The notes beneath the pieces are model-generated. The model saw nothing but the letters and a program-made list of their open reading frames with translations. It ran no database searches and was not told the origin of the DNA. The position numbers were made by a program, and so were the translations under genes. This document shows, piece after piece, positions 29,301 through 46,055 of a stretch of DNA of 64,000 nucleotides; position 1 is the first letter of the stretch, and the number at the start of each line of letters is the position of its first letter. The stretch covers positions 186,001 through 250,000 of the forward strand of contig NZ_JAMLJK010000001.1 of the NCBI RefSeq assembly GCF_023700005.1, read 5' to 3'. The stretch comes from Larsenimonas rhizosphaerae (GTDB lineage Bacteria > Pseudomonadota > Gammaproteobacteria > Pseudomonadales > Halomonadaceae).

Positions 29301-30698
29301 ATGGCTCACCCCTGTTACTGGCACGATAGCCTTGCGACCCCGCCGGTGGCCTATTCACGGCTTGACGGTGATATCGACGCCGATGTGGTCATTATCGGTG
29401 CCGGGTTTACCGGCCTCTGGAGCGCGTATTACCTCGGTAATGCCGACCCTTCGCTGAGGATTGTGGTACTGGAAGCCGAGCAGGTGGGGTATGGGGCCTC
29501 GGGGCGCAACGGTGGGTGGCTGGTCGGCAGCATGGCCGGGCTTGATCGCTACATTGACGACTGGCCGCTGGCAAAGCGCCAGACCGTATGTGATCTGCTG
29601 TGTCGCAACGTGGATGACATTGGCGCCGTGCTGGAAAGGGAAGGGATAGAGGCCGACTACCACAAGGGAGGAGCGGTCTATGTGGCGGCCCGTTATCCGG
29701 CACAGGAGCAGGTGCAGCGGGAATACCTGGCGCACCTGCACCATATCGGCTTTCGTGACGAGGACTGCCGCTGGCTGGACCCTGATGCCATGGATCGTAT
29801 CGGTCGGTTTCGTGATCAGCGTGGTGGTATCCTGCAGCGTCAGGTCGCGACCTTTCATCCGGTGAAGCTCCTGCACGGCCTGGCCGCCCGGCTGGTGGCG
29901 CGCGGTGTGCGCCTTTACGAGCACAGCCCCGTGGAGGAGACGGCGCCGGGGCTTGCCCGCACGCGTCATGGCCGGGTCAGGGCACGTCATGTAGTGACGT
30001 CTACGGAGGGCTATACCCGTCATCTGGGGCTGAAGCGCCATATCCTGCCGATCGAGAGCATGCTGATTGCCACCGAACCGCTGTCCTCCATGCAGTGGGA
30101 CGAGATCGGACTGGCCGGTCGTCAGGCCTTCGGGGATGCCAGTCGACTGGTGACCTATGGCCAGCGCAGCCAGGATGACCGGCTTATTTTCGGGGCACAG
30201 GGCTACTACCATTTCGGCGGCCCTGCCCGGGCGGAGTTCGGGATTTCCGCGCGGCATCAACGCATGCGGGAGGGGTTGCTGAACGCCCTGTTTCCCGGCC
30301 TTGGCAAGGTCAGTATTACCCATGGCTGGGGCGGGACACTGGGCCTGTCACGCCACTTTCGGCCTCATGCCATTCTGGATGCGGAGACCGGCATGGCCAC
30401 TGCCGGTGGCTACGCCGGAGAGGGGGCTGCCATGGCTCACCTGATGGGGCAGACGCTGGCGGAACTGATCACCGGGCAGCAGACCGAGCGTACCCGGATG
30501 CCCTGGGTGCATGCCAATGCCCGTCCCGCAGAGGTGCTGAAACGCTGGGAGCCGGAACCGCTGCGGTGGGTGTCTGCTCAGGCCGTGGCAGCAAGCTATG
30601 GTCTGGAAGAGGCGATGATGCAGCGTGACCTTCATGTGCCGGGGTTGAGTCCTGCGCTCAATGCGGTCAACAACGCCGTATCGCGGATGGTGGAGTAG
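29301..30698 (+). CDS. FAD-dependent oxidoreductase (DAO family, PuuB-like)
   Basis: A 465-residue flavoprotein starting MAHPCYWHDSLATPPV. FAD is bound by VVIIGAGFTGLWSAYYLG near residue 31, with the GYGASGRNGGWL loop that follows in amine oxidases of the DAO family; C-terminal GGYAGEGAAMAHLMGQTLAE completes the FAD site. The layout is that of gamma-glutamylputrescine oxidase and related amine oxidases, but no other puu gene is nearby, so the substrate is open. The ATG at 29301 has GGAG 12 bases away. Convergent with the TraX gene. Confidence 0.85.
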   Translation: MAHPCYWHDSLATPPVAYSRLDGDIDADVVIIGAGFTGLWSAYYLGNADPSLRIVVLEAEQVGYGASGRNGGWLVGSMAGLDRYIDDWPLAKRQTVCDLLCRNVDDIGAVLEREGIEADYHKGGAVYVAARYPAQEQVQREYLAHLHHIGFRDEDCRWLDPDAMDRIGRFRDQRGGILQRQVATFHPVKLLHGLAARLVARGVRLYEHSPVEETAPGLARTRHGRVRARHVVTSTEGYTRHLGLKRHILPIESMLIATEPLSSMQWDEIGLAGRQAFGDASRLVTYGQRSQDDRLIFGAQGYYHFGGPARAEFGISARHQRMREGLLNALFPGLGKVSITHGWGGTLGLSRHFRPHAILDAETGMATAGGYAGEGAAMAHLMGQTLAELITGQQTERTRMPWVHANARPAEVLKRWEPEPLRWVSAQAVAASYGLEEAMMQRDLHVPGLSPALNAVNNAVSRMVE

Positions 30699-30713
30699 GC
30701 CCTTCAGGCCGGG

Positions 30714-31475
30714 TCACGGCACTACCACCAGCGCGACGATCAGGCTCAGGTGGCCGGGATACCAGCTGCGCCACAGCCAGCGCGGCAGCGTCGCGCGTGG
30801 TGGCAGACGCGGCACGTCATGGCCGCCGCGGGCAGCAATGACCAGCACGCACAGCGTGGTGGCACAGGTAAAAAACAGGGCGGGCGTGCTGTCATTGAGT
30901 TGGGTGGCAAGCCAGCATACCGGCAGGCATCCCAGCGCAGCGGTCAGGCGAGGGTAATTGACCAGCAGATACTGCGCCAGCATGAAGGCCGGAATGATCA
31001 GCACGCCGTCCCGGCCGTATTCAAGCCGTGGCCCCACGGCGTACCAGAGAAACAGGCCGACTGCGGCCAGCATCACATGCCGAAGCACCGTCGCCGGGTT
31101 CCATGCCGCTTCCCGCATCAGGGCACGCGTGGTGCAGGCCAGCATCAGGCCGAGCGCGAGCGTAAAGCACACGTTCAGCACCAGCCCACCGGTCAGCAGC
31201 ATGAAGGGTAACTGGGCCACCAGGCCGATGATCAGCAGGCGCCTTGTATAGCGCCAGTGGCGGGAGGTGTCATACAGGGCATGCCAGGCCACCATGGCCG
31301 CAAACAGCGGAAAGGCGATACGCCCTGCCGTTTCCATGATCCACAGGGCCTGGCCGTGGCCCGCCGGGACCAGCAGGTAGCGGGCAACATGATCCAGCGT
31401 CATGGTGATCAGGGCGAGCCATTTGCCCCATTCCGTCCATCCGGAGCAGGGGGGAGCGTGCTGAATATGCGTCAT
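30714..31475 (-). CDS. TraX-family membrane protein
   Basis: A 253-residue protein with about seven to eight membrane helices. The N-terminal KWLALITMTLDHVARYLL and METAGRIAFPLFAAMVAWH match the TraX family (PF05857), named after the F-plasmid pilin acetylase; chromosomal members are common and their targets unknown. The ATG at 31475 begins the recognisable domain; a longer frame upstream is an artefact. It lies downstream of the ABC ATPase gene by 31 bases on the same strand, so it may be co-transcribed with the iron importer, but a functional tie is not known. Confidence 0.85.
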   Translation of the reverse strand: MTHIQHAPPCSGWTEWGKWLALITMTLDHVARYLLVPAGHGQALWIMETAGRIAFPLFAAMVAWHALYDTSRHWRYTRRLLIIGLVAQLPFMLLTGGLVLNVCFTLALGLMLACTTRALMREAAWNPATVLRHVMLAAVGLFLWYAVGPRLEYGRDGVLIIPAFMLAQYLLVNYPRLTAALGCLPVCWLATQLNDSTPALFFTCATTLCVLVIAARGGHDVPRLPPRATLPRWLWRSWYPGHLSLIVALVVVP

Positions 31476-31506
31476 GCGCGGGTGCCGAGTGCAGGTCGTG
31501 GCGTTG

Positions 31507-32262
31507 CTACAGCAGCGGGCCCTTGAGCACGACCTGAGGCTGGCCAAGGGAGTTGCGCTCGACGTGGCCGTCCACACGATAGACCTGTTCCAGCAGGTGC
31601 TCGTCAATGATGGTGGCACAGGGACCGAAGCGGTGCATGCGCCCCTGGCTGATGGCCAGGGCCTGGTCACAGTACCCCAGGGCATGGTTCAGGTCATGCA
31701 GGGCAATCATCACGATCATCCGGCGCTCGTCGGCCAGTCGGCGTACCAGGCTCAGCACTTCCATCTGGCGGTGCAGGTCGAGGGCGGCGGTCGGCTCATC
31801 CATCAGCAGAATGTGCGGGCGCCGGATGAGGCTTTGTGCAATACCGACCAGCTGCCGCTGGCCCCCGCTGAGTTCGGCCAGATACCGGGAGGCGAGGGAG
31901 GTAATGCGCAGCGAGTCGAGCAGTTCGTCGATCCGCTCAAGCTCTTCGGCGGTCACCTTCAGTGAGCGTCCCTGCTTGGCAGCCAGGACCACGGATTCAA
32001 ACACGGTCAGGGCGGCGCTGGCGCTGGTATCCTGAGGCAGGTACACCAGTGCCTGTTCTCCGTCGGGAACGCCTTCGATATGTACCTGGCCTTCTCCGGC
32101 TGCCAGCCCGGCAATGCGGCGAAACAGGCTCGACTTGCCGGCGGCGTTGGGGCCGATGACGGCAATGATCGATCCGTCGTGAATCACGGGCGTCGTGATG
32201 TCGGTCAGTATCTGAGTACGGCCATAGCGTACGCCGAGGCCTTCAATGGCGAGGCTTACCAT
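31507..32262 (-). CDS. Ferric siderophore-type ABC transporter, ATPase
   Basis: A 251-residue ATPase of the FecE/FhuC type: Walker A GPNAAGKSS, Q-loop LPQD, ABC signature LSGGQRQ, Walker B ILLMDEP and H-loop ALHD are all intact. It powers uptake of iron chelates (or cobalamin/heme) by the permease encoded upstream, with which its gene overlaps by 7 bases. Last gene of the binding-protein, permease, ATPase operon. Confidence 0.93.
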   Translation of the reverse strand: MVSLAIEGLGVRYGRTQILTDITTPVIHDGSIIAVIGPNAAGKSSLFRRIAGLAAGEGQVHIEGVPDGEQALVYLPQDTSASAALTVFESVVLAAKQGRSLKVTAEELERIDELLDSLRITSLASRYLAELSGGQRQLVGIAQSLIRRPHILLMDEPTAALDLHRQMEVLSLVRRLADERRMIVMIALHDLNHALGYCDQALAISQGRMHRFGPCATIIDEHLLEQVYRVDGHVERNSLGQPQVVLKGPLL

Positions 32263-33323
32263 GCGTTACGCTTCCTGCTTGCAAAGATCAACGAGAAGAA
32301 GAACGGGATACCTACCAGCGCTGTCGCCACGCCGATCGGCAAAATGGCGCCCGGTACCAGCATCTTGCTCAGCACCGAGGTGGCCGAGAGGATGAGTGCG
32401 CCGCACAGGATCGAGGCGGGCATGAAGAAGCGTTGATCTTCCCCTACCAGCATTCTGGCGATGTGCGGGCCTACCAGGCCGATAAACCCGATGCTGCCGA
32501 CGAACGATACCGAAATGGCGGCCAGCAGGCTGACGAGCATCAGAGTGGTCAGGCGCAGGCGCTTGACGTTGACGCCCAGGCTTTCCGCGCGGGCATCTCC
32601 CAGTCGCAGGGCCGTCAGGGCCCAGGACTGGCGAATGAACAGGGGCACGGTCAGCACCAGCGCCATGGCCGTTACCGCCACCTTGGTCCAGGTCGCCTTG
32701 ACCAGGCTGCCCATGGTCCAGAACACCACGGCGGACAGTGCCTGTTCGCTGGCAAGGTACTGAAGCAGGGCCTGCAGGGCATTGAAGGTAAAGACCATGG
32801 CAATGCCCAGCAGCACGATCGTCTCGACGGTCACGCCCCGCAACTGGCTGAAAAAGTGAATCACCAGTGCAGCCAGCATGGCCATGACAAAGGCATTGAG
32901 CGGAATGATGAAGGCCGTCAGCACCGGCACCAGCGCAATGCCGAATACCAGTGCCAGGGCCGCGCCAAACCCGGCCGCGGCAGAAATGCCCAGGGTAAAC
33001 GGGCTGGCCAGGGGATTGGCCAGAATCGTCTGCATCTGGGCACCGGCCACCGACAGCGAAGCCCCGACGGTCAGCGCCATCAGCGCGACCGGCATGCGAA
33101 TCTCCCACAGGATCACGCGCATCTTGGTGTCAGCGTCATCCGGGAACAGCAGAGTGGTGACTACGTCGGACAGCGGGTAGTCATAGGGTCCGGTCGCCAG
33201 GTCGACGGCAAAGGATACGACCAGGGCAGCGGCCAGCCCGAGCAGAATAAGCAGGCGGCGGCCGATGCTGGCACGGTAGGAATGACTGCCCCGGTGAACC
33301 GTTGGTGCAAGCGTATCGCTCAT
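32256..33323 (-). CDS. Ferric siderophore-type ABC transporter, permease (FecCD family)
   Basis: A 355-residue membrane protein with around ten helices and the FecCD hallmarks: LPVALMALTVGASLSVAGAQ-type region (IRMPVALMALTVGASLSVAG), NPLASPFTLGISAAAGFGAA, and VGSIGFIGLVGPHIARMLVG, the coupling-helix region that contacts the ATPase. A homodimer is expected since only one permease gene is present. Start ATG 33323 overlaps the binding-protein gene stop by 4 bases. Confidence 0.93.
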   Translation of the reverse strand: MSDTLAPTVHRGSHSYRASIGRRLLILLGLAAALVVSFAVDLATGPYDYPLSDVVTTLLFPDDADTKMRVILWEIRMPVALMALTVGASLSVAGAQMQTILANPLASPFTLGISAAAGFGAALALVFGIALVPVLTAFIIPLNAFVMAMLAALVIHFFSQLRGVTVETIVLLGIAMVFTFNALQALLQYLASEQALSAVVFWTMGSLVKATWTKVAVTAMALVLTVPLFIRQSWALTALRLGDARAESLGVNVKRLRLTTLMLVSLLAAISVSFVGSIGFIGLVGPHIARMLVGEDQRFFMPASILCGALILSATSVLSKMLVPGAILPIGVATALVGIPFFFSLIFASRKRNAW

Positions 33324-34450
33324 GCATCCTCATCTTTGTTCAGGGACGTGAAATACCCGGGCGCATACTCGAGGGGCAAAAAGCGGGAGTAAAGCTCGCG
33401 CAGGGTGGCGTCAGGATCCACGTCCCTGAAGAGGTCAGGGTGAATCCACTTGGCCAGCTGTTCGATGGCCACAAACTGATAGGGGCTGTTGTAGAACTGG
33501 TGCCAGATGGCGTGCACGTTACCCTGTTTCACTGCTTCGGTGTGGGCCAGGGCCGGGCGGGTCAGCAGGTATTCAAGCCGCTTGCGGGCTTCGGCCTGGT
33601 CGCTGTTCGGACCGGCAGGAATCCATTTGCCGTCCGGGACATAGCCGCTCCATTCGCCGCCGGTGGCAATATAGACCGACGGGTCGGAGGCGATGACCTG
33701 CTCCGGGTTTACCGTGCCGAACGTCCCCGGGATGATGTCGCCTGCGATGTTGTGTCCACCGGCCAGGGTCACCATCTCGCCAAAGTTGGCGTTACCGAAC
33801 GACATGCAGCATTCCTCGCTGTAGCCGGCGGCGCGCTCGATGAATACTTCCGGTGTGGTCGGGCTGGACTTGGCCAGTCGGTCGGTCACGGCCTTGATAT
33901 GGGCGTTGCTGAATTCAATGAATTCGTCGGCGCGTTTCGAATGATCCGTCAGGCGGCCCAGCAGGCGCAGGCTGGGGTCGGTGTGCTGCATGGGCTTTTC
34001 ACGGAAATCGATGTACACCACCGGGATGCCCACGGCGGCCAGCTTCCGGTCAAGCCCGGAGCTTTCCGTAGCTTCACGTGCCTCGATATTCATCACCACG
34101 ACCTGCGGGTCAAGCGTGATGGCCTGTTCGACATCGAAGGTGCCTTCCTTGAAACCACCGAAGGTCGGAATCTTCGTGATCTCCGGGTAGCGCTTTTTGT
34201 AAGCCTCCCAGGAACCCGGGTCGGCCTTGGCGAGGTCATCGCGCCAGCCCACGACCCGCTTGAACGGTGCTTCCCGGTCCAGCATGGCCAGGGCATAGAT
34301 CATTCGACCCTCACCCAGAATCATCCGTTTTACCGGGACTTCAACGGACACGTCGCGGCCGGCGATATCGTGAACGGTAATGCGTTCCTGCGCGAATGCG
34401 GCCGTGGACAGCGCCCACAGCACTAATGCGGTGATGATTCTTGATGTCAT
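33320..34450 (-). CDS. Ferric siderophore-type ABC transporter, periplasmic binding protein
   Basis: A 376-residue protein with an N-terminal signal peptide (about residues 1-20, IITALVLWALSTAAFA) and a class III binding-protein fold: MILGEGRMIYALAMLD, then GGFKEGTFDVEQAITLDPQV, and a long connecting helix. Such proteins carry iron-siderophores, heme or cobalamin to FecCD permeases. No TonB receptor or siderophore biosynthesis gene is adjacent, so the ligand stays open. First gene of its operon; the AT-rich upstream sequence has only a poor Fur-box resemblance. Confidence 0.9.
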   Translation of the reverse strand: MTSRIITALVLWALSTAAFAQERITVHDIAGRDVSVEVPVKRMILGEGRMIYALAMLDREAPFKRVVGWRDDLAKADPGSWEAYKKRYPEITKIPTFGGFKEGTFDVEQAITLDPQVVVMNIEAREATESSGLDRKLAAVGIPVVYIDFREKPMQHTDPSLRLLGRLTDHSKRADEFIEFSNAHIKAVTDRLAKSSPTTPEVFIERAAGYSEECCMSFGNANFGEMVTLAGGHNIAGDIIPGTFGTVNPEQVIASDPSVYIATGGEWSGYVPDGKWIPAGPNSDQAEARKRLEYLLTRPALAHTEAVKQGNVHAIWHQFYNSPYQFVAIEQLAKWIHPDLFRDVDPDATLRELYSRFLPLEYAPGYFTSLNKDEDA

Positions 34451-34641
34451 GCCCGATACGTCCTGCCTTTTTATGATAGAGCTTATTATTTGGAAGTGTT
34501 TGTCACTTGTAAACCGCTATTTGGCGGCGCTCTGTTATCGCTTTGTTGCCGAGCCCGGATCGGCATGAAGCGTGGCAGGGGGCAGTGTCGTGAAAACGCA
34601 CCGGCCGGCCGGGTGGGCGGTGCGGTTGAGGAGGAAGGCGG

Positions 34642-35271
34642 CTACTGCGCCTGTGCCTCGCGCTCCAGCGCGGTACATACGCCGGCCTCGAGCCCCAGCG
34701 CCCTGCCCAGCTGATCGAGCCATGCCCGTTCCATGTCATTTTGCTCATCAATGATGGCAACGCTTGCCAGGTAGACTTCCCGGGCCGCCTGGGGGGTATC
34801 CACATCCCGTGCGATGGCACTGGCATCGAGCCGGCTCGCCATCTGCTGCTCGACCCATGCCTGCAGCTCGTCATCGGCACCCAGCTCGCGCATCTGACCG
34901 GCCAGCATGTCCTGTTCCCGCTCATCGATATGCCCGTCGGCTCGTGCCGCGGCAATCATCGCCTTGAGAATGACCCGGCTGCGCTGCTCCCGGGCCTGGG
35001 CATCAAGCTGTTCCAGCGGCTCACCTTCACCGGCGGTCGAGCTGCTCTCACTGCGGTGTTTCTGCCAGGCCTGCCAGGCCATTTTGCCAAGGCCTGCCAG
35101 GGCTGCGTACTTGATGGAGCTTCGCCCGCGCCGGCCTCCCAGCAGCATGCCCAGCGCGCCGCTGCCCAGAAGCGAGGACACGTTGAAGCCGGAATCGCCG
35201 GCGGTGTGTTTTTTGCTCGACGAACGGGCAGCCTGCTTCATCAGCTGGGATAGGATCTTCTGTGCGTTCAT
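34642..35271 (-). CDS. YebE-like DUF533 / TerB-type protein
   Basis: A 209-residue protein starting MNAQKILSQLMKQAARS. After a Ser/Lys-rich start come a glycine-rich hydrophobic stretch (SSLLGSGALGMLLGGRRGR) and a C-terminal helical TerB-like domain with the acidic metal-binding motif AARADGHIDEREQDML. This is the DUF533 family of E. coli YebE, an inner-membrane protein of unknown function often in envelope-stress regulons. Monocistronic. Confidence 0.88.
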   Translation of the reverse strand: MNAQKILSQLMKQAARSSSKKHTAGDSGFNVSSLLGSGALGMLLGGRRGRSSIKYAALAGLGKMAWQAWQKHRSESSSTAGEGEPLEQLDAQAREQRSRVILKAMIAAARADGHIDEREQDMLAGQMRELGADDELQAWVEQQMASRLDASAIARDVDTPQAAREVYLASVAIIDEQNDMERAWLDQLGRALGLEAGVCTALEREAQAQ

Positions 35272-35427
35272 GAGCTCTCCTGACGCAATGAATGAAAGTG
35301 TCCCCCTCTTTATAGACCCTTCAGGCCATTCGAGGTGGGGCCGTCGCGCTCGACCAAGGTTGAGGAAGGGTTTGCCGCAGGAGTGTGCCAGGGTCAAAAA
35401 ACCGTTATTCACCCGAGGTGGCTCAAG

Positions 35428-36741
35428 ATGCTCAAGGTTGTCGCTCGTCCCGTGGTGCGGCTTGTAGAGCGCTATCTACCCGATGCCTATATCTTTGTGC
35501 TATTGCTGACACTGATAGCGGCCGGCGCCGCCATGCTGGTCGAAGGGCAGTCGCCCATGGCGGTGCTGAGGGTCTGGGGCGGCGGATTCTGGGGGCTGTT
35601 GAGCTTTTCTATGCAGATGCTGATGGTGCTGGTCAGCGGTTATCTGCTGGCCAGTTCGCCCCCGGTCCGGCGTGGTCTGACGGCGCTTGCGCGGCTGGCC
35701 GGCACGCCCGGGCGGGCCATTCTGATGGTGACGCTGGTGTCACTGATGGCCAGCTGGATCAACTGGGGGTTCGGGCTGGTCATCGGGGCATTGTTCGCCC
35801 GCGCGCTGGCCCGGGAAATTCGGGTGGATTACCGCCTGCTGATTGCCAGTGCCTATTCCGGCTTTGTGGTATGGCACGGCGGACTGGCCGGTTCCATTCC
35901 ACTCACCATCGCCACGCCAGGTCATTTCACGGCTGACCGGATCGGTGTGATTCCAACCAGTGAGACTCTCTTTTCATTTTATAACCTGGCCATTCTGGCG
36001 GCACTTTTCGTGATCATGCCGCTGGTCAACCGGGCAATGATGCCGGACGAAAGGGACATCGTGCTGGTCACGCCCGAGCAGCTGGCCGAACCGGAGCCCG
36101 TGGCCGGAAAAGACGCTTCGCTGCCTGCCGAGCGCCTTGAAAACAGCCCGTGGCTGTCCTGGCTGGTAGGCATTCCCGGTGTGCTGTATCTGGTGGTGTA
36201 TTTCATTGTCGATGGCGGCGGGCTGAACCTCAACAGCGTCAACTTCCTGTTTCTTTTTCTGGCGATGGTGCTTCACCGCACGCCCCGCAACCTGCTCAAC
36301 AGCCTGACCGAGGCCATCAAGGGCGGCGCCGGGATCGTCATCCAGTTTCCGTTCTATGCCGGCATCATGGCCATCATGGTGGAGTCGGGGCTGGCGCAGT
36401 CACTTTCGGAACTGTTCGTGTCGATCGCCGATGCCGATACGCTGCCGTTCTGGTCCTTTCTCAGTGCCGGGCTGGTGAACCTTTTCGTGCCATCCGGCGG
36501 GGGGCAGTGGGCCGTTCAGGCCCCGGTCATGCTGCCGGCCGCGCAGGCACTCGGGGCTGACGTGGGCCGGGTGGCCATGGGCGTTGCGTGGGGGGATGCG
36601 TGGACCAATCTACTGCAGCCCTTCTGGGCACTGCCGGTGCTGGCCATTGCCGGGCTGGGCGCGCGGGATATCATGGGCTTTTGCATGATTCATCTGGTCA
36701 TTACCGGCGTGGTGATCGGGGCGGGGCTGACCTTTCTCTAG
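35428..36741 (+). CDS. Short-chain fatty acid transporter (AtoE family)
   Basis: A 437-residue carrier with about ten helices. ASWINWGFGLVIGALFAR, GFVVWHGGLAGSIPLTIATP and NLFVPSGGGQWAVQAPVML are hallmarks of the AtoE family, which brings short-chain fatty acids such as butyrate or acetoacetate into the cell. The start MLKVVARPVVR at 35428 has a GAGGTGG upstream; the frame extends further upstream without meaning. No fatty acid CoA-transferase gene is next to it. Convergent with the cysteine-hydrolase-like gene. Confidence 0.9.
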   Translation: MLKVVARPVVRLVERYLPDAYIFVLLLTLIAAGAAMLVEGQSPMAVLRVWGGGFWGLLSFSMQMLMVLVSGYLLASSPPVRRGLTALARLAGTPGRAILMVTLVSLMASWINWGFGLVIGALFARALAREIRVDYRLLIASAYSGFVVWHGGLAGSIPLTIATPGHFTADRIGVIPTSETLFSFYNLAILAALFVIMPLVNRAMMPDERDIVLVTPEQLAEPEPVAGKDASLPAERLENSPWLSWLVGIPGVLYLVVYFIVDGGGLNLNSVNFLFLFLAMVLHRTPRNLLNSLTEAIKGGAGIVIQFPFYAGIMAIMVESGLAQSLSELFVSIADADTLPFWSFLSAGLVNLFVPSGGGQWAVQAPVMLPAAQALGADVGRVAMGVAWGDAWTNLLQPFWALPVLAIAGLGARDIMGFCMIHLVITGVVIGAGLTFL

Positions 36742-36766
36742 GCGGTGATGTTCACTGATGAGCAGG

Positions 36767-36796
36767 GCTGCCGCCCCCGGCGAGGAGGGCGGCAGC
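36767..36796. terminator. Hairpin between convergent genes
   Basis: Ten-base-pair stem GCTGCCGCCC/GGGCGGCAGC with a ten-base loop between the AtoE gene and the convergent gene. No T-run follows on either strand, so it is at best a weak terminator. Confidence 0.4.
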
Positions 36797-36802
36797 AGGC
36801 CA

Positions 36803-38809
36803 TCAGGCGGGCGGCAGTCTTTCCGCCCCCCAGCTTCGGCGGATATAGCCCATGACATCGTCCAGTTCGGCAGCGGGAATATCGGCCAGCCGGCCCTCTT
36901 CCTGCGGATCCTGATGGAAGATATAGAGCCGTGAGGCAAACTGGGCGAAGGGCAGGGAGGCTTCGCCGAAGCGCTCGCCGCAGCCATCGGTGCTGACATC
37001 CACGCCATCGCCCCAGTTCTGACCGCTGTCATTGTTGGGATTGAAGAAGTAGATCCGCATGTGATCATCCGGCCCCGGAGCGGCGCGCAGAATGCTGATG
37101 GCGTGCCAGCCGATGAAGCGGGCGGCACTGTCGGTCACGGCAATGCCGGCGGGTTGCGGGTGGATCAGGGGCTGGTCGCCGTTATAGTGCGGATGGTAGG
37201 CGGCGTAGAAGTGGCGCAGGAAGGTTTCCGGCTCGATCAGCATGCCGGTGGCCACATCCACATTGATGTGAAAGGCGCGTCCGGTCCACCAGCCGTGAAA
37301 TTCCGGATTGATCCAGCGATGCGGGTCGCCTTCCCGACCGATGCAGCGCCGGCCCATCTCCATGTAGATGCGGTCCAGATGCGGCACCACCAGCAGGGAC
37401 ACCGGATCGAGGTCCAGCGGTAGCGTGGGAGAGAGGCCTTCACCGCTGTCGCAGGATGAAATCGGCTGTCCTTCAAAGTGCATGGTAATGCCGTCATCCC
37501 GTGCCGCCCAGGTCACCATCTGCAGCAGATAGTCCGGGTCGCTCCAGCCCCACATGGAAAGCGCCCTGGCGGACTGACAGGTGGGATTATTGCCCTGGCC
37601 CACGCCCAGAGGCTGGCCCAGCATGCACAGTACGCCTTCCAGCAGCCGTGCTTCCGGGTCCACCATGTCACCATAGGCGGCCTTGATACGGGCACGCGAC
37701 CAGTCGCTCAGGGGCAGTCCAAGCTGACGCCACAACGCCGGCGGAATGGGCGGCTGATACAGAATGCCGCGTTCCAGCAGCCGGGCCAGGCCGTACAGGG
37801 CCTGATCGGTTTCCGGCTGGGCCACGCGTGCCAGCAGGGCACGGATCAGCGGGTGAAAGCGCAGCAGGCAATCGCGGCCGGTGGCGGACAGCCCGAGCGC
37901 CTCGCTGATCAGGTGATCGTGATCCTTCAGCAGATAACGCACCAGTACGGCGTGATAGGCCGAGACCAGCCCGGTATCGTGCATGGCGCGGGCCATGCCG
38001 GTGGCCTCCAGCTGAAGGGCGGCGCCATCCATCATGGCCAGCCGTTCTTCGTAGATATCAATGCCCGGATCTTCGCTGCAGGCCTGGGTCGGGCCGAACA
38101 GGCTGCTGACCAGCCGTGTTGCTCCCTGCCCGCTGGTGCCCAGATCGATCTCCGGGTCCGCCTGGCACAGGGCGATGCGGGTAATCATCTCGCGGATGGT
38201 TTCGGTCTGAATCGGGCGCTGTTTCAGCAGCCGCCAGATTTCATCGATCATGGAATCGATGACGTTTTCAAACCCGATGCGCTCGGACAGGTGAGCCAGC
38301 AGCTGACGGGATACCAGTGCCAGTTTGCCTTGGGTTTCCCGTTCGGCTTCGCTGGGCGGGCCAAACAGCATCGACAGGTTCAGCGCCAGTACCTGGGTCA
38401 GGTAGGAGCGGGCCTGTTCGGATGACACCTGGGGGTGGGCATAGTCCTCCCGCGCGACGGCCAGCAGGCGCAGCTCGCTGAGAGCCTCGATGACCACGGT
38501 CATCGGCTCGGGGCTGGTCAGTGAGTGGCGGGTCAGTGTCGGCAGCAGAATGCCGGGGCGTGCCCAGTCCGAGCCTTCGAAAATGCCGGCTTCTTCCATC
38601 GCTCTGGCACGGGCTTCCAGCGTCCCGCAGCCACCGGGCTCCATCAGCACACGGCGTGCAATATCGAATACGCGGCCTGCCCGCCCCACGCGGGAAACGG
38701 AGGGCGCGTCGGCCAGCCGGTCAACGGCATCGTCGAGCTGAAGTTCAAGACGGGCGAGCCGTGAAGGCTCGCCCGTTGCGTGTGATTCGCCACTGTCCTT
38801 GATCGTCAC
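36803..38809 (-). CDS. Large protein with a papain-like Cys-His-Asn arrangement, paired with an ATP-grasp ligase
   Basis: A 668-residue protein from the GTG at 38809 (AGGGAGG four bases upstream); a GTG at 38830 would add 7 residues. I recognise no family. Residues 1-~390 look all-helical, without membrane segments or signal peptide. The C-terminal part holds GQGNNPTCQSARALSMW, with Gln405 and Cys411 six apart as in papain (Gln19/Cys25), then GWHAISIL with His569 and YFFNPNND with Asn590, in the order and rough spacing of a papain/CHAP/transglutaminase-type triad. A cytoplasmic thiol hydrolase or acyl transferase is inferred. It lies 60 bases after the ATP-grasp gene in one operon. A perfect 10-bp stem-loop lies inside the first 20 codons (38751-38775). 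Confidence 0.75.
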   Translation of the reverse strand: MTIKDSGESHATGEPSRLARLELQLDDAVDRLADAPSVSRVGRAGRVFDIARRVLMEPGGCGTLEARARAMEEAGIFEGSDWARPGILLPTLTRHSLTSPEPMTVVIEALSELRLLAVAREDYAHPQVSSEQARSYLTQVLALNLSMLFGPPSEAERETQGKLALVSRQLLAHLSERIGFENVIDSMIDEIWRLLKQRPIQTETIREMITRIALCQADPEIDLGTSGQGATRLVSSLFGPTQACSEDPGIDIYEERLAMMDGAALQLEATGMARAMHDTGLVSAYHAVLVRYLLKDHDHLISEALGLSATGRDCLLRFHPLIRALLARVAQPETDQALYGLARLLERGILYQPPIPPALWRQLGLPLSDWSRARIKAAYGDMVDPEARLLEGVLCMLGQPLGVGQGNNPTCQSARALSMWGWSDPDYLLQMVTWAARDDGITMHFEGQPISSCDSGEGLSPTLPLDLDPVSLLVVPHLDRIYMEMGRRCIGREGDPHRWINPEFHGWWTGRAFHINVDVATGMLIEPETFLRHFYAAYHPHYNGDQPLIHPQPAGIAVTDSAARFIGWHAISILRAAPGPDDHMRIYFFNPNNDSGQNWGDGVDVSTDGCGERFGEASLPFAQFASRLYIFHQDPQEEGRLADIPAAELDDVMGYIRRSWGAERLPPA

Positions 38810-38869
38810 AGGGCCTCCCTGAGGCGGCACGGCGCAATGCCTGATGCATTGCCCGCGCTATCGCATGTC

Positions 38870-40093
38870 TTACACATAGAAGTCGAGGTCTTCCTGATGC
38901 TTGAGCAGATCCCTGAGGGTATGCGGATCCTCACCGAAGAAGAAGATCAGCCCCCAGTGGGTGCCGAAGGCCGTGCGCTTGGTCACGGTGGCTTCCAGCG
39001 GTGCCGTCAGCTCGTGGAAGTCGAAATACGCGTGGTTTTCGGTCTCTTCCGGAATATCAAGCTGGCTGACGACGCGACGCCGCGGATAGACCCCGAAGCA
39101 GCCGGCATGGCCCTTCGCATCGACCACTTCCGTCGGGAAGAAGGCGTTGATCTCTTCTTCCGTGGTGTGCGGGTCGAAGACCAGCATGGTGGCCTGATAG
39201 GCACTGAAGCCATAGGCGCGTTCGATCAGTTCGAACGCCTTGAAGCCCGGCGGGCGGTAGGCAACCTCACCGAAGTACATGGTGCCGTCACTGGTGACAA
39301 AATATTCGGGGTGAATCTGGCCGAACTGAATGTCGAAGGTCTTGATCAGCAGTTCGATCTGCTGCGTGATCTGGGCACGGTATTTCTCAAGCTCCGGCGT
39401 GGCGGGCACAAAGACGGAATATCCGAGGGTCACATATTCGGAGATGTTCAAGAACTGGATCTTGCCGTTCCACACCCAGGCTTCGACGGCAAATTCCCAG
39501 CCGTCCAGATGGCTTTCCATCAAAAGCGGGTATTCGCTGTCGGGGATGGTGTCGATTTCCTCCGAGGAGCGAATGACCCGATGCCCCAGGCAGCCGGCCT
39601 TGTCGAAGGCCTTGAGGTGAATCGGGTCTTCCGGGTCGCCATCAAGCTTGAGCAGGGTCTGGTTGACGCGCTTGAAAAAGCGCAGCACGTCACTTTGCTC
39701 GTGGGCTTCTTCAAAAATACCGACCCGAATGCCGCCCAGCTGGGCTCGGCGCTTCATCAGGGCCTTGTCCCGGAACAGCACGGCCTGACCATGCAGGCGC
39801 GGATTGCCCATCAGTACGGAGTTGATGGCACCGGCCCATTCAACGGTTTCTTCAAATAACGGAATGGCAGCATCGATGCCCATGTCCTTGAGGGTCTCGG
39901 CAATCTCGATGGAGCGGTCGTTCAGGCGCTCGAAGTTCCAGGGCACGTAAGGAATGTTGTGTTCGGTGCAATACTCTTCAGCCCAGGTGGGAGCCACTAC
40001 CACGTAGCGCCGGTCAAATTTTTCGGCAGCTTCCACGGCACCGAGACTCCAGCCCAGCAGTGCGATATAGCCCTTGTTGGGATCCTTTTCCAT
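38870..40093 (-). CDS. ATP-grasp ligase
   Basis: A 407-residue protein. An N-terminal pre-ATP-grasp region (YIALLGWSLGAVEAAEKFD) is followed by the ATP-grasp domain: FRDKALMKRRAQLGG, the adenine/triphosphate region with HLKAFDKAGCLGHRVI, the LMESHLDGWEFAVEAWVWNG loop and the metal-binding FGQIHPEYFV and YFGEVAYRPPG. The fold makes carboxylate-amine (or thiol) bonds with ATP; substrate unknown. A good site AGGAGACAGG precedes the ATG. It heads a two-gene operon with the papain-like protein; an enzyme pair that builds and breaks amide bonds is one reading. Monofunctional purine or amino-acid ligases of this family look different. Confidence 0.88.
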   Translation of the reverse strand: MEKDPNKGYIALLGWSLGAVEAAEKFDRRYVVVAPTWAEEYCTEHNIPYVPWNFERLNDRSIEIAETLKDMGIDAAIPLFEETVEWAGAINSVLMGNPRLHGQAVLFRDKALMKRRAQLGGIRVGIFEEAHEQSDVLRFFKRVNQTLLKLDGDPEDPIHLKAFDKAGCLGHRVIRSSEEIDTIPDSEYPLLMESHLDGWEFAVEAWVWNGKIQFLNISEYVTLGYSVFVPATPELEKYRAQITQQIELLIKTFDIQFGQIHPEYFVTSDGTMYFGEVAYRPPGFKAFELIERAYGFSAYQATMLVFDPHTTEEEINAFFPTEVVDAKGHAGCFGVYPRRRVVSQLDIPEETENHAYFDFHELTAPLEATVTKRTAFGTHWGLIFFFGEDPHTLRDLLKHQEDLDFYV

Positions 40094-40304
40094 GATCCTG
40101 TCTCCTGTTTTTTATATGTCATGTGAGTGCGAGATCGTGGGGTCAGTGTAGTTGATTAGAGGTTTTTTGCGGGAAAATCGGCAAATTGGTGCCGTTCAGG
40201 CATGAAAAAACAGACATGCGTTCAGCGGCTGATCGGCGTGGCGAGCGGCCCGGCAGCGAGGTGGCGCAAGGTTCGTCACGGCCTGGTTTCATGTCATTGT
40301 CAGC

Positions 40305-40326
40305 GGGTCATCCCCCTGTCATGACG
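40305..40326 (+). promoter_or_regulatory. Possible Pho box upstream of the PiT gene
   Basis: Two GTCAT cores 11 bases apart (CGGGTCATCCC then CCTGTCATGAC) fit the repeat unit of PhoB sites, CTGTCATAAAT; a third GTCAT lies 14 bases further upstream. The remainder of the 317-base gap between the ATP-grasp and PiT genes shows nothing else I can name. Confidence 0.35.
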
Positions 40327-40410
40327 GCTTTCTAGACTTGCGGTGACCTGGGTGGAATGGCCTTACATGCCCTGGTCTGATACCTGTCACGGGCACTGCC
40401 GGAGAGCACC

Positions 40411-42021
40411 ATGAGCAGCGACGCTTCAGAAACCGGCGGACACGCCACGCTGGATACCTTCAGGCACTCGCCTCGGCTGAGTCTTTTCTTTATCGGGCTG
40501 CTGCTGGCCTTTACCGGCTACTTCGTGGCCTGGGGCAGTGGCTACATCCAGAGTCAGCATACGCTGCTGTTTTTCTTGACCACGCTCTTTGGCGTGTTCA
40601 TGGCGTTCAACATTGGCGGCAATGACGTGGCCAACTCGTTTGGTACCAGCGTTGGCGCCGGCACACTGACGGTGCATCAGGCGCTGCTGGTCGCGGCCAT
40701 TTTTGAAGTCAGTGGGGCCGTGATCGCCGGAGGAGAGGTGACCTCGACCATTCGCGGCGGCATCGTTGATCTTGATGGCATGGCGATCCGGCCGCTGGAG
40801 TTCGTGTTCATCATGATGTCATCACTGATTGCCGCGGCACTGTGGCTGCTGTTTGCCTCCCACAGAGGGTACCCGGTGTCCACTACCCACTCGATTGTCG
40901 GGGCCATCATCGGCGGGTCTGTCACGCTGGGAGTGTTGAAGCACGGCGGACTTGCCGCCCTTGATCTGGTGCAGTGGCGCGAAGTGGGCATGATCGCCAT
41001 TTCCTGGGTGCTCTCGCCGGCACTGGGGGGCATTGTCGCTTACGTGCTGTACTCGCTGATCAAGCGCCATATCCTTGCCTACAACGACAGGGCGCAATCC
41101 CGGCTGGAAACCATTCGCGAGGAAAAGCGTGCCCACAAGCGGCGTCACAGGGAGGCCGTCGAGCGGCTGTCGGAAGTGCAGCAGATGGCCTACACCCAGG
41201 CCATGGCGCGGGACATGCAGGCCATCAGTGACAGGGATTTCAGCATCGACGATCTGGAATCGGAGTACTACCGCAAGCTCTACACCATCAATCGAAAGCG
41301 CGAGGATGTGCATGCCCACCGGGCACTGGAACACTGGGTACCGGTCATCGCAGCCCTGGGGGCGATCATTCTGACGGCCATGCTGCTGTTCAAGGGCTTC
41401 AGCCACCTGGCTCTGGGGGTCGATACCCTGGGCAGTTATCTGATCATGGGCATGGTGGGCGCTCTGGTCTGGATGGCGACGTTCATCTTTGCCAAAACCC
41501 TCAAGAGCGAGACCCTGGGACGCTCGACATTTCTGATGTTCAGCTGGATGCAGGTCTTTACGGCGGCCGGGTTTGCCTTCAGTCACGGCTCCAATGACAT
41601 TGCCAATGCGATTGGCCCCTTTGCCGCGGTTCTGGATGTGCTGCGCACCGGGGCCATCGGCGAGGAGGCCAGTATTCCGCCGCTGGCGATGCTGACCTTC
41701 GGCGTGGCGCTGATTGCCGGGCTCTGGTTCATTGGCCGGGAAGTCATTCAGACCGTCGGGCACCATCTGACCAGAATGCACCCGGCCTCCGGGTTCTCCG
41801 CCGAACTGGCTGCCTCTGCCGTCGTGATGCTGGCCACCACCTTCGGCCTGCCGGTATCCAGCACCCATATCCTGATTGGCGCCGTGCTTGGCATCGGCAT
41901 GGTCAATCGCCAGACCAACTGGTCCCTGATGCGCCCGATTGCGCTGGCGTGGGTCATTACCCTGCCTGCTGCCGCCGTGCTGGCTGCCGGCGCGTTCATG
42001 GTCCTGAATGGGGTGTTCTAG
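40411..42021 (+). CDS. Inorganic phosphate transporter, PiT family
   Basis: A 536-residue low-affinity phosphate carrier. Both family repeats are visible: [20 protein letters not shown] near residue 68 and [20 protein letters not shown] near 390, each with the GxND signature, plus the paired [16 protein letters not shown] and [18 protein letters not shown] charged, helical cytoplasmic loop of about 100 residues ([20 protein letters not shown] and on) separates the halves. No PhoU-type gene is next to it. Convergent with the LacI-type gene, sharing 4 bases at the stops. Confidence 0.95.
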
Positions 42022-43052
42022 GCGCTTTCGCCTTCGTGCAGGGTGAAGCCGACATTGATGCTCAGTTCGCCCAGCGGCTCCCCCCTGATGCGTCGCAGCA
42101 GCTGTTCGGCAGCCCGTTGCCCGATCAACTCCCGGGGAGAGACAATCGTGGTCAGGCGTGGCGTCATGTGCCGGCCGATCGGCAGGCCGTTGAAGCCTGC
42201 TATGGCGATATCCTCCGGAATACGGATGCCATCGCGCATGGCCGCGAGAAGGGCACCGCAGGCCATGTCATCGTTGGCAAAATGAATGGCATCGCATGTC
42301 GGTGAATGCGTCCGAATGTGCATGAGTGCCTCGGCCCCGCTGTCCATCTGCTGTCGGCTCGGCAGGTCAAGCAGCGGTGCCGGCAGCCCGGCGGCCTCAA
42401 GCGCCTGGCGGTGTCCTTCAAAGCGCTCTCCGGCGCGATAGTCCCGCTCGAGCTCTGCCCCCGCGTAGTGGATATGCCGATAGCCCCGGTTCAGCAGGTG
42501 GGTGGCCATGGCGTGGCCGGCGGCGCGGTGATCAAGGCCGACGTTCATGTCCAGACCGTCGCCGTATTCCATGATTTCGACCACCGGCTGGTTCCAGTTC
42601 TCCAGCAGCTGGCGGGTCTCGTCACTGTGACGCAGCCCGGCGATGATCAGCCCCGAGGCAGACCAGCCCAGAAAGGTGCGTACCAGTTGCGCTTCCCGGT
42701 CCAGGTCGTAATCGGTCTTGCCCAGCAGCAGTTGATAGCCGGCGGCTTCCAGGCGCTGCTGCAGCCCTCGAATCACCTCGATGAACACCACGTTCGCCAG
42801 CGACGGCACGATGACCGGGATCACCCGAGTCGTGGCCGAGGCCAGGCTGCCGGCAATCATGTTGCGGACATAGCCGACCTGGTTGACCGCGGCTTCAACC
42901 TTCAGGCGGGTAGCGTCACGTAGTGCCTCCGGGTCGTTGAAGTAACGCGACACCGTGATCGGTGCGACGCCGGCTTCCCGGGCCACATCGGTCAGTGTGG
43001 GCTGCATGGCTCCCTTGCGGGAGCGTTTCTCGTGGGCGTCATCCCTGGACAT
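42018..43052 (-). CDS. LacI-family repressor of the tetronate operon
   Basis: A 344-residue regulator. The HTH is [20 protein letters not shown] and the hinge helix reads [14 protein letters not shown], followed by a periplasmic-binding-protein-like sensor domain ([20 protein letters not shown] to the end). GntR/IdnR-type regulators of sugar acid genes look alike. I take the ATG at 43052 (AAGGAAA upstream); ATG 43007 is a later option. Divergent from the tetronate catabolic operon, with a perfect operator between, so it most likely represses that operon until a four-carbon acid or its product binds. Confidence 0.92.
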
Positions 43053-43108
43053 TGGTCGCGTTTTCCTTGTTCGCACTTGCGCAGGGCTCGAGACTAAAGC
43101 ACCCTTTT

Positions 43109-43122
43109 TGGTAGCGCTACCA
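43109..43122. promoter_or_regulatory. LacI-type operator in the divergent tetronate promoter region
   Basis: TGGTAGCGCTACCA is a perfect 14-base palindrome with the central CG typical of LacI/GntR-family operators, midway between the regulator start (43052) and the ltnD start (43175). Confidence 0.85.
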
Positions 43123-43174
43123 TTTACACAATCATTAGCCGGCAAGACCGGTTATTGCCTACGGGAGAATCACT

Positions 43175-44122
43175 GTGTCTACCCCCTCGAATGCTGTATC
43201 CCCTGACATCGGTGTAGTTGGTCTGGGTGCCATGGGAATGGGCACGGCCTGTTCCCTGCTGCGTCAGGGCCTGTCGGTCATCGGCTGCGATATCTCACCG
43301 ACTGCCCGTGCCGCCTTTGAGGACGCCGGCGGCCGAAGTGCCGAGACCCCGGCCGCGCTGGCAGGCTGCAGCGTCGTGCTGCTGGTGGTCGTGAATGCCG
43401 ATCAGGTCGAGCAGGTGCTGTTCGGGGCCGAGGGGCAGGGTGGCCTGGCCGCAGCGATGTCGCCCGGCAGTGTGGTAATGCAGTGTGCCACGGTTGCGCC
43501 AAGCTACGCCGTGGCCCTCGGTGAGCGCCTGGCGGCCCTGGGGCTTGTCATGCTGGATGCACCGATCAGCGGCGGGGCCGCGAAGGCCTGCACCGGCGAG
43601 CTGTCGGTCATGTCTTCCGGGACTGCCGAGGCCTATGAAAAAACGGACGCCGTGCTGTCGGCCATGGCGGCGAAGGTCTATCGGCTGGGCGAGCAGCCCG
43701 GCGCGGGGTCCAGCGTCAAACTGGTCAATCAGCATCTGGCTGGTGTGCATATTGCCGCGGCGGCAGAAGCCATGGCCCTGGGGGCGAGCATGGGCCTCGA
43801 CCTTGAGGTGCTGTACGACGTCATTACCCATTCGGCGGGCAATTCCTGGATGTTTGAAAACCGGGTGCCACACATTCTGAAGGGCGATTACACCCCGTTG
43901 TCGGCCGTGGATATCTTCGTCAAGGATTTGAACATCGTGCACGCTACCGGCCGGGAGCTGAAACTGCCCATGCCAGTGGCCGGCAGCGCACTGCAGCAGT
44001 TCACCGCTGCCAGCGGCGCAGGCCTTGGACGTGAAGACGATTCGGCGGTGGTGAAGGTCTATCAGCGGTTGCGTCATTTCGATTTGCCGGCGGCCAATGA
44101 TGCCGAGGAGCGTCCGTCATGA
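43175..44122 (+). CDS. ltnD: L-threonate dehydrogenase (3-hydroxyisobutyrate dehydrogenase family)
   Basis: A 315-residue NAD-dependent beta-hydroxyacid dehydrogenase. The Rossmann motif GVVGLGAMGMG is near residue 13, the substrate motif DAPISGGAAKACTGELSVM near 128, and the catalytic Lys182 sits in VKLVNQHLAG. In the described pathway LtnD oxidises L-threonate to 2-oxo-tetronate. GTG start with GGGAGA upstream. First gene of the operon ltnD-otnK-otnC-otnI-denD-gntP; overlaps otnK by 4 bases. The exact stereoisomer is inferred from operon context. Confidence 0.88.
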   Translation: MSTPSNAVSPDIGVVGLGAMGMGTACSLLRQGLSVIGCDISPTARAAFEDAGGRSAETPAALAGCSVVLLVVVNADQVEQVLFGAEGQGGLAAAMSPGSVVMQCATVAPSYAVALGERLAALGLVMLDAPISGGAAKACTGELSVMSSGTAEAYEKTDAVLSAMAAKVYRLGEQPGAGSSVKLVNQHLAGVHIAAAAEAMALGASMGLDLEVLYDVITHSAGNSWMFENRVPHILKGDYTPLSAVDIFVKDLNIVHATGRELKLPMPVAGSALQQFTAASGAGLGREDDSAVVKVYQRLRHFDLPAANDAEERPS

Positions 44123-45405
44123 GTCTGGTGCTCGGGGGGATTGCCGACGATTTCACCGGCGCCACGGATCTGGCCAACAACCTGGTGCGCGGCGGCATGC
44201 GCACGGTGCAGGTCATTGGGGTGCCGGAGGATGATCAGGTGCTGGAGGACGCCGATGCCGTGATCATTGCGCTCAAGTCGCGCAGCACTCCGGTAGAGGA
44301 GGCCGTTCGTGACAGTCTGGCGGCGCTGGCCTGGTTGCAGGCACGTGGCGCCCGTCAGATTTTCTTCAAGTACTGCTCGACATTTGATTCCACGCCGCGG
44401 GGCAACATCGGCCCTGTTGCCGAGGCGCTGATGGCGGCTCTTGATACGCCCCAGACCGTCATGGTCCCGGCCTTTCCGGTCAACGGGCGCAGCGTATATC
44501 AGGGGCATCTGTTTGTCGGAGACCGACTGCTCAACGACAGCGGCATGGAGCAGCATCCACTGACGCCGATGACGGATGCCGATCTGGTGCGGGTACTGGG
44601 CGCGCAGACGGACAGGCCTGTCGGCCTTCTCGCTCATGCCACCCTGGCCGGTGGCGCAGACAGGGCCATCGAGCGGCTGGCCTCATTGCGGGAGGCCGGC
44701 ACGGCCCACGTGATATGCGACAGCGTGGACGAGCAGGACCTGGCCGTGCTGGCCGAGGTCACGGCGGATCTGCCACTGGTGACCGGCGGTTCCGGTCTGG
44801 CTCAGGCACTGCCTGAGGCCTACCGCGCCCGGGGCTGGCTGGCACCACACGGTGATGCTGCAGCGCTGGCACCCTCATCCGGAGGATGTGCGGTGCTGTC
44901 CGGCAGTTGTTCGCGCATGACGCTTGCACAGATTGAGGCGTTCAAGGCCCGCCATCCCGGTCTGGCGCTGGACCCGCTCAGGTTGAGCGAGGGAGATGCC
45001 CATCGGGACGAGGCTCTGCAGTTTGCCCGGCAGTGCATGGCCCGTGACCCACAGGCGCCTTTCCTGATCCATGCCTCCGCTGACAGTGAGGCCGTGCGTG
45101 CCGTGCAGGATCGGCTCGGCACCGAACGGGCCGGCGCCCTGGTCGAGGAGACGCTGGCCTGGCTGGCTCGCACCCTGGTGGACGAGGGTATCGGCCGTCT
45201 GATCGTGGCCGGGGGCGAAACCTCCGGGGCCGTGGTATCAGCCCTGTCGATCACCACGCTGCGGATCGGGCCACAGATTGATCCGGGCGTACCCTGGACC
45301 CAGGCGAGCCTGCCTGGCCGCGAGACCGTGCTGTCCCTTGCCCTCAAGTCCGGCAATTTCGGCGGCACTGATTTCCTTACCCGTGCATTCGAGGTATTGC
45401 CATGA
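44119..45405 (+). CDS. otnK: 3-oxo-tetronate kinase
   Basis: A 428-residue member of the four-carbon acid sugar kinase family (former DUF1537). N-terminal LGGIADDFTGATDLANNLVR and the FFKYCSTFDSTPRGNIGPV block form the substrate site; C-terminal LIVAGGETSGAVVSAL binds ATP. It phosphorylates 3-oxo-tetronate at C4. Overlaps ltnD and otnC by 4 bases each, a tightly coupled operon. Confidence 0.95.
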   Translation: MSLVLGGIADDFTGATDLANNLVRGGMRTVQVIGVPEDDQVLEDADAVIIALKSRSTPVEEAVRDSLAALAWLQARGARQIFFKYCSTFDSTPRGNIGPVAEALMAALDTPQTVMVPAFPVNGRSVYQGHLFVGDRLLNDSGMEQHPLTPMTDADLVRVLGAQTDRPVGLLAHATLAGGADRAIERLASLREAGTAHVICDSVDEQDLAVLAEVTADLPLVTGGSGLAQALPEAYRARGWLAPHGDAAALAPSSGGCAVLSGSCSRMTLAQIEAFKARHPGLALDPLRLSEGDAHRDEALQFARQCMARDPQAPFLIHASADSEAVRAVQDRLGTERAGALVEETLAWLARTLVDEGIGRLIVAGGETSGAVVSALSITTLRIGPQIDPGVPWTQASLPGRETVLSLALKSGNFGGTDFLTRAFEVLP

Positions 45406-46055
45406 GCCAGTCACCTCACGAGATCAATCGTCTGCGCGAGCAGATTGCCCTGCACGGCAAGTCGCTTTTTGACCGCGGGCTGACCATGGGGTCCAGCGGC
45501 AATATCAGTCAGCGCCTGGAGGACGGAGGGTGCCTGATGACGCCCACCAATGCCTGCCTGGGCCGGCTCGATCCGGCGCGGATTACCCGGCTGGACGCCC
45601 AGGGCAGGGTACTGGACGGCGATGCACCGACCAAGGAGCACTTCCTGCATCGGGCCATGCTGGAAGAGCGGCCGAGTGCCGGCGCGATCGTGCATCTTCA
45701 TTCAACCCATTCGGTGGCGGTGTCCTGTCTGCCGGACATCAACCCCTGTGACTGCATTCCGCCGCTGACAGCCTATTACGTGATGCGGGTCGGCACCCTG
45801 CCGCTGGTGCCTTACCACGTGCCGGGCGACGAGCGGCTGGGGGACGCCGTACGGGGGCTGGCCGGTCAGCACAGTGCCGTGCTGCTGGCCAACCACGGCC
45901 CGGTGGTGGCCGGCAAGAACCTTGATGCGGCGGTGTATGCCACCGAGGAACTGGAAGAGACCGCCAAACTGTTTTTGCTGCTCAGAGGCACCAACCCTCG
46001 CGGGCTGACCCCTGAGCAGGTGGATGAGCTCAATGCGCGTTACCCGCGTGACTGA
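45402..46055 (+). CDS. otnC: 3-oxo-tetronate 4-phosphate decarboxylase (class II aldolase family)
   Basis: A 217-residue metal-dependent aldolase-fold enzyme with zinc ligands in [13 protein letters not shown] (HxH) and [29 protein letters not shown] is the substrate phosphate loop and TKEHFLHR carries the catalytic Glu. It decarboxylates 3-oxo-tetronate 4-phosphate to dihydroxyacetone phosphate, linking the operon to glycolysis. Length and motifs are normal. Confidence 0.95.

Follow-up and report, generated by a model that had tools for sequence, protein, structure and literature searches.

The 64,000-nucleotide stretch of Larsenimonas rhizosphaerae DNA analyzed here (the window; positions 186001-250000 of contig 1 of the 3.29-Mb genome G000) carries two consecutive genes on its minus strand, which we call A and H. 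Gene A, the first of the pair (38870..40093), is an open reading frame (ORF) that encodes a putative ATP-grasp ligase of 407 amino acids. Gene H (36803..38809) encodes a protein of 668 amino acids whose C-terminal part is a predicted papain/calpain-like thiol hydrolase domain, an assignment drawn from its ORF, start context, model, fold comparison and conservation. A first-pass annotation of this DNA had described both ORFs, and both lie where it had placed them, as separate genes and not as halves of one protein, with 60 bases between them. A Shine-Dalgarno-like AGGGAGG, read from the sequence (38814..38820, minus strand), precedes the GTG at 38809 by 4 bases, and because of it the 668-residue form of H and the 60-base gap, both proposed in that annotation, are plausible; an alternative in-frame GTG at 38830 would give a protein of 675 amino acids. 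Of the residues proposed for the active site, the candidate catalytic Cys411 (codon 37577..37579, counted from the ORF start), His569 (37103..37105) and Asn590 (37040..37042), all on the minus strand, were found at their expected positions, as was Gln405. In the 675-residue numbering used below, they are Gln412, Cys418, His576 and Asn597.

The principal finding is that A and H occur together throughout the genomes searched, and that they almost certainly form a functional pair. H was present in 59 of 390 genomes of the order, and full-length A was present in the same 59; a sixtieth genome of the order sample (G039) gave only a partial A match (E 4.4e-6). Sixty-one of 75 full A copies lay within 2 kb of an H, with A upstream of H in 48 cases, H upstream of A in 5 and the two divergent in 8. 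An adjacent pair was found in 55 of the 59 genomes, and the remaining four (G574, G592, G628 and G671) carried an intact A elsewhere. The same was true of all three genomes (those of L010, L072 and L082) that were chosen for the lack of a full A next to their H, in order to test the prediction of pairing. Outside the order, full A was found in 10 of 10 H-positive genomes, drawn from samples of 398, 274 and 240 genomes, and in 0 of 24 H-negative genomes (19 from outside the order and 5 from the family of the window), one of which (G793) gave a partial A match of 20 bits. In every genome searched for both genes, full H and full A were either both present or both missing. A convergent A/H pair in G941, outside the order sample, adds a fourth gene order, and A and H were separate ORFs in every locus whose gene map was read. 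The first-pass annotation had proposed to survey the neighborhoods of H homologues for constant pairing, and the pairing is well supported: the H-positive genomes searched all carry A, mostly next to H. Because the search for H scored no more than three candidates in each genome, extra H copies are undercounted. In the genome of L055, gene A is split across two contigs.

Local decay of the pair was observed in several loci. A remnant of A, consisting of its last 25 to 47 codons, lies directly upstream of H in L072, L082, L182, L194 and L196, and in G592 and G671 a piece of the 3' end of A is still present ahead of H; the retained sequence perhaps carries promoter or translation signals of H. 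In L010 and L206, no A match is left beside H. The reverse was seen in L262 (G628, contig 16, 39052-40769), where an intact A stands beside a short H fragment (33.6 bits) and a full H is located elsewhere in the genome. Genome G055 (L121-L126) contains five full copies of H and one fragment; one of the paralogues stands immediately downstream of a fatty-acid desaturase gene (L121), and another precedes a gene for a metallo-beta-lactamase-fold protein, near GCS2-like and weakly AstE/AspA-like genes (L124). In the window itself, the gap between A and H holds an inverted repeat, GCAATGC-ATCAG-GCATTGC (38834-38852), recognized by eye and not followed by a run of T. Comparison of the loci revealed no third gene that constantly accompanies the pair. 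ABC transporter genes are repeatedly found upstream, but by eye they are of several kinds (polyamine, sugar and sulfate types) and represent different systems at different loci.

H had been assigned to no family in the first-pass annotation, and the searches bear this out. The protein gave zero matches in Pfam, NCBIfam and the defense-system collection PADLOC at E up to 1, and as a single sequence it gave zero matches among PDB sequences at E up to 10. A profile of H found three weak matches in the PDB, two of which are designed cages or bundles by name. When 26 members were compared with Pfam, eight families matched weakly (best E 0.011), none of which was recognized as belonging to the papain clan. 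Because no catalogued family of that clan matched by sequence, no named papain-clan family is claimed for H. Conservation is nevertheless strict at the candidate active site: Gln412, Cys418, His576 and Asn597 do not vary in any of the 148 distinct homologues compared (not counting the protein of the window), which range from 75% down to 40% identity, and 47 of the 64 invariant positions fall after residue 390.

An AlphaFold model of H, made with a 26-row alignment, had a mean predicted local distance difference test (pLDDT) value of 86.7 and a predicted template modeling score (pTM) of 0.80. In the model, about 390 mostly helical residues stand ahead of the thiol domain, in agreement with the N-terminal region that the first-pass annotation had predicted. 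Cys418 is modeled as the first residue of a helix (418-430), His576 within a strand (572-585) and Asn597 directly after a strand (591-596); residues 412-415, directly before the cysteine, are modeled with a pLDDT under 50. Structure comparison aligned residues 379-643 with calpain cores at Z scores of 6.2-7.9 (best match: Z 7.9, root-mean-square deviation (rmsd) 4.2, 198 residues aligned), and staphopains followed at Z 5.5 (rmsd 3.8-3.9, 136-138 residues aligned). Among the matches listed, calpain and staphopain cores alone span the C-terminal domain; the CHAP fold was not among them, which does not exclude it. The staphopain alignment pairs residue 404 of the model with chain residue 9 or 10 (10 in 1cv8), and Cys418 would fall on residue 24 of 1cv8, its catalytic cysteine, if the stretch is ungapped. 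The structure prediction and fold search thus suggest a papain-type order of elements. None of the tests by which the annotation could have been refuted did so, and its interpretation is partly supported.

Like the calpain and staphopain cores, with which 138-221 residues of H could be aligned, the modeled domain has a cysteine at the start of a helix, a histidine on a strand, an asparagine after a strand and a glutamine six residues before the cysteine. The distance of 21 residues between His and Asn is also that of staphopain. Unlike those enzymes, H has a large helical N-terminal region and is paired with a ligase; it is only 12-15% identical to them in the aligned rows and, as mentioned above, has no papain-clan Pfam match. 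Judged from the model and the conserved residues, H is very likely a papain-fold thiol enzyme, and this predicted fold is well supported.

Since the proteins that the thiol domain most resembles are proteases, H might be a cytoplasmic protease with targets of its own, to which A is linked merely by shared regulation or habitat. We regard this as highly unlikely: a full copy of one gene without the other was not seen in any genome searched for both, and habitat alone does not account for the adjacency in several gene orders or for the retention of A in trans after local decay.

Assignment of A as an ATP-grasp protein, as first annotated, is very likely correct. Its score against the Pfam family ATP-grasp_4 (PF13535) was 24.2 bits (26 bits by genome search), which is below the cut-off of 27 bits, and no close characterized relative was found. 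On the other side, a profile of 17 A sequences matched two L-amino acid ligases in the PDB, 4wd3 (E 9.6e-4) and 3vot (BL00235; E 0.0021), and these matches, its best among solved structures, cover residues 180-311 and align the E-x-x-x-R site. Residues Lys110, Lys161, Glu193, Glu200, Glu263, Glu276 and Arg280 are the same in all 146 rows of the alignment. By the roles of such positions in ATP-grasp enzymes, they would bind ATP and metal; Ala278 stands where many of these enzymes carry a metal-binding asparagine. From its sequence, it is highly probable that A is a ligase, and very likely that it is an ATP-grasp ligase of the amino-acid type, differing from the two solved ligases in its link to a thiol hydrolase.

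A second type of A was also observed, with an N-terminal extension of about 30 residues that ends in the near-constant DPxxDSVxGTETPKDPNKG (L122, L131, L195, L197, L198, L199, L200, L203, L214-L216, L218, L255, L258-L262, L264, L266 and L267). Among the loci compared, this extended type is often the copy located away from H, or stands beside an H paralogue.

Pairs of ligase and hydrolase that make and break amides are already a known kind. Glutathionylspermidine synthetase/amidase, for example, combines ATP-dependent amide synthesis and thiol-type amide hydrolysis in one fused protein, and A and H would likewise couple these two reactions. They differ from it in being two genes, in that H aligns with calpain and staphopain cores among the matches listed, and in that no polyamine gene was recognized among the ten window neighbors scanned. 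The statement in the first-pass annotation that no polyamine or peptide gene is nearby therefore stands for those ten neighbors; it does not extend to all relatives, in some of which EctC-like, GNAT and HDAC-type genes, treated below, adjoin A or H.

An add-and-remove pair can also act on proteins, an animal example being tubulin tyrosine ligase and vasohibin. By this analogy, A would attach an amino acid or a small amine to some protein, from which H would take it off again, with the large helical part of H holding the protein substrate. It is because of this part that the explanation is retained: about 390 mostly helical residues are more than a small-molecule amidase needs. The two enzymes are also retained together even when their genes are not adjacent, and, judging by the alignments, A is far more conserved than its partner (aligned A sequences are all at least 74% identical to that of the window, compared with 40-75% for H homologues), as if A had to meet a conserved partner. 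The nearest solved relatives of A, however, are small-molecule amino-acid ligases, comparison of the loci showed no candidate target protein that is always adjacent, and the EctC-like, HDAC and GNAT neighbors suit metabolites better, so that reversible protein modification appears unlikely.

The same solved relatives raise the question of a specialized peptide or pseudo-peptide, whose building blocks A would join and which H would release or trim, or against which H would give self-protection; 4wd3 (TabS) and BL00235 are both ligases of peptide natural products. The distribution of the pair, which is patchy, would agree with such a product. Counting the own genome in each case, H was found in 23 of 58 relatives, in 11 of 398 genomes sampled from the phylum and in 8 of 274 from the class, and a further class had it in 3 of 240 genomes (the central genome, G073, included); the species of the window has the pair, and the two other species of its genus that were searched have neither H nor A. 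In the loci compared, however, no third gene for biosynthesis, export or resistance is constant, and H is more widespread than a typical strain-specific product would be, as there are at least 578 confirmed stretches with H relatives in a collection of one genome per species. A peptide product is therefore quite unlikely. Hundreds of species probably maintain the pair. The best 80 of these at least 578 stretches represent the best-scoring end and not a fair sample; the named ones are mostly from Halomonas, Salinicola, Chromohalobacter, Billgrantia and similar genera, and the 80 hosts, by their genera, are mostly from saline or alkaline habitats. Carriage on mobile elements was not indicated, with zero H matches in phage records, and a plasmid search gave one match, on a 1.8-Mb Halomonas replicon.

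The genes that accompany the pair in some genomes point to a metabolite related to ectoine, which is made by the acetyltransferase EctA, EctB and the cyclase EctC. A gene of the ectoine-synthase family exceeded the cut-off in 59 of 59 H-positive genomes of the order and in 42 of 101 H-negative ones (7 of 21 plus 35 of 80; Fisher p 2e-16, not corrected for kinship), the latter being every second genome in the numbered series of those without an H match. In seven of the 59 genomes, no more than 2 kb separate an EctC-like gene from A, H or a remnant of A, in different arrangements: ectC-A-H (G480), A-H-ectC (G038), ectC-A (G574), ectC and H divergent (G692), A and ectC divergent (G660), a remnant of A and ectC convergent (G586), and ectC-GNAT-HDAC beside A (G489). 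A rough estimate, assuming average copy numbers and a 4-Mb genome, gives 0.25 of 59 genomes by chance. With two further genomes, G777 (EctC-like gene convergent to A) and G1028 (after A), there are nine linked cases, which are not all independent, as G586 and G660 belong to the same genus. Eight of the nine linked EctC-like proteins form one group, with 47-97% mutual identity and 41-50% identity to the EctC of the window genome itself; the ninth, in G480, is 54% identical to that EctC. In G489, G586 and G660, the gene adjoining A (a decayed copy in G586) is the single EctC-type match of the genome. The pair resembles the ectoine pathway in having EctC-like, GNAT and deacetylase genes near it in some genomes. 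It differs from that pathway in that A and H are not part of it; the nine linked EctC-like proteins are 41-54% identical to the EctC of the window genome. In that genome, A and H lie outside the ectABC cluster, and the EctC gene follows ectA- and ectB-like ORFs, on the contig of the window but some 1.4 Mb away from it.

In eight genomes, genes for proteins of the HDAC family (PF00850) adjoin A or H or lie close to them, and the PDB relatives of these proteins include HDAC6, bacterial HDAH and the polyamine deacetylase HDAC10. The gene orders are H-HDAC-A-EctC in one direction (L250, whose HDAC is 49% identical to the other linked HDACs), A-H-HDAC (L248), HDAC convergent to H (L130 and L202) and GNAT-HDAC-H (L209); in L205 and L256 the gene adjoins A or H, and in L264 it is 3 kb from A. 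A clade defined by at least 66% identity, nearly full length, to the L248 protein was present in 18 of 28 H-positive genomes, hand-picked from the 59, compared with 0 of 20 genomes that have EctC and lack H, in which the best match was 43% identical (Fisher p 2e-6, not corrected for kinship). A GNAT gene stands immediately upstream of the HDAC gene in L205, L209 and L256, and this arrangement recurs in 6 of 20 further HDAC loci. Generic HDAC-family genes, 30-42% identical to the clade, lie some kb from A or H in eight more loci (L034, L039, L040, L060, L063, L064, L068 and L077), which were not counted as linked.

We give about an even chance to the explanation that A and H are two obligate enzymes of one pathway for an ectoine-like amide metabolite, kept mainly by salt-adapted Pseudomonadota. 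A salt-related amide metabolite is favored because the GNAT, HDAC and EctC neighbors fit acylated diamines: GNATs would acetylate them, HDACs would deacetylate them, and EctC would condense an N-acetyl diamino acid to a ring. The co-occurrence and the gene neighborhoods suggest that the pair would act on an ectoine-type compound, namely a small acylated diamine or amino acid, since an EctC-type gene was present in every H-positive genome of the order and EctC-like, GNAT and HDAC genes adjoin A or H in some lineages; that the pair acts on an ectoine-type small molecule at all is a possibility to which we give somewhat less than an even chance. By analogy with their families, A, as an ADP-forming ligase, would use ATP to convert a carboxylate to an acyl phosphate and then join it to an amine. 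In the cytoplasm, the cysteine of H would attack an amide and form a thioester with the acyl group, which would pass to water or to another amine, with His as the base, Asn orienting the His, and Gln in the oxyanion hole.

Several observations weigh against this explanation or parts of it. The fold match of H is moderate, and a Z score under 8 can mean a common arrangement; Foldseek with the model found nothing at E ≤ 0.001 and listed mainly helical-repeat proteins (best E 0.23). The E-values of A with the ligases are only about 1e-3, and A was modeled with low confidence (pLDDT 54.9, pTM 0.51). Related genomes are not independent, and the co-occurrence with EctC may reflect saline habitat alone, although the position of EctC-like genes next to A or H is less easily explained in this way. 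Most A/H loci examined, including the window, have no EctC, GNAT or clade HDAC close by. In the 20 further HDAC loci, A, H and EctC were absent within 14-18 kb in 20 of 20, and the best HDAC match in the window genome is only 36% identical to the clade, because of which the HDAC part would be accessory or replaceable.

A more specific form of the ectoine-like explanation is that A, H, solitary EctC-like proteins, GNAT and HDAC together constitute a previously undescribed osmolyte pathway. In this pathway, A would couple an amino acid, or some other acid, with an acylated diamino acid or with the ectoine-like ring formed from it. The ring would be closed or opened by EctC-like enzymes, the acetylation would be set by GNAT and HDAC, and H would release the parts when salt falls. 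The three genomes whose sole EctC-type match adjoins A, or a decayed A, give a hint of it; we consider it a tentative proposal and rather doubtful as a whole. EctC is described as condensing an N-acetyl diamino acid to a ring, opening some ring analogues and cyclizing glutamine as a side reaction (PMC5924519), and the function of solitary EctC proteins is called unresolved or not yet clear in two reports (PMC5924519, PMC6344544). If true, the proposal would provide a natural function for the solitary EctC proteins of halophiles. More generally, if the pair handles an osmolyte-type amide, it would be an overlooked branch of halophile solute metabolism, made of one protein without a curated family (H) and another that is only weakly matched (A), despite their wide spread. 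A strain of Halomonas elongata (L040) is among the carriers of H, and this species is that of the industrial ectoine producer, according to the title of PMC3187862. As far as titles and the opening parts of abstracts go, the literature searched does not name an obligate pair of separate ATP-grasp and calpain-like enzymes that is linked to EctC-like, GNAT and HDAC genes, and at the same level, papers retrieved with "ectoine" and "ATP-grasp" contained nothing on the subject. A related system may be covered in a 2009 survey of amidoligases by Iyer and colleagues.

Around the pair, no RNA element reached the gathering threshold within window positions 30000-46000. At 29301-30695 of the window lies an ORF resembling flavin adenine dinucleotide (FAD) oxidoreductases, akin to aminophosphonate and pipecolate oxidases and below both cut-offs. 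A 730-residue ORF at 5757-7949 looks to be of the OsmC/YcaO type. A gene at 35425-36738 that resembles TIGR00366, below the cut-off, converges on H, and an ORF that resembles it by eye is located about 5 kb from H in another locus (L130, 2183-3490).

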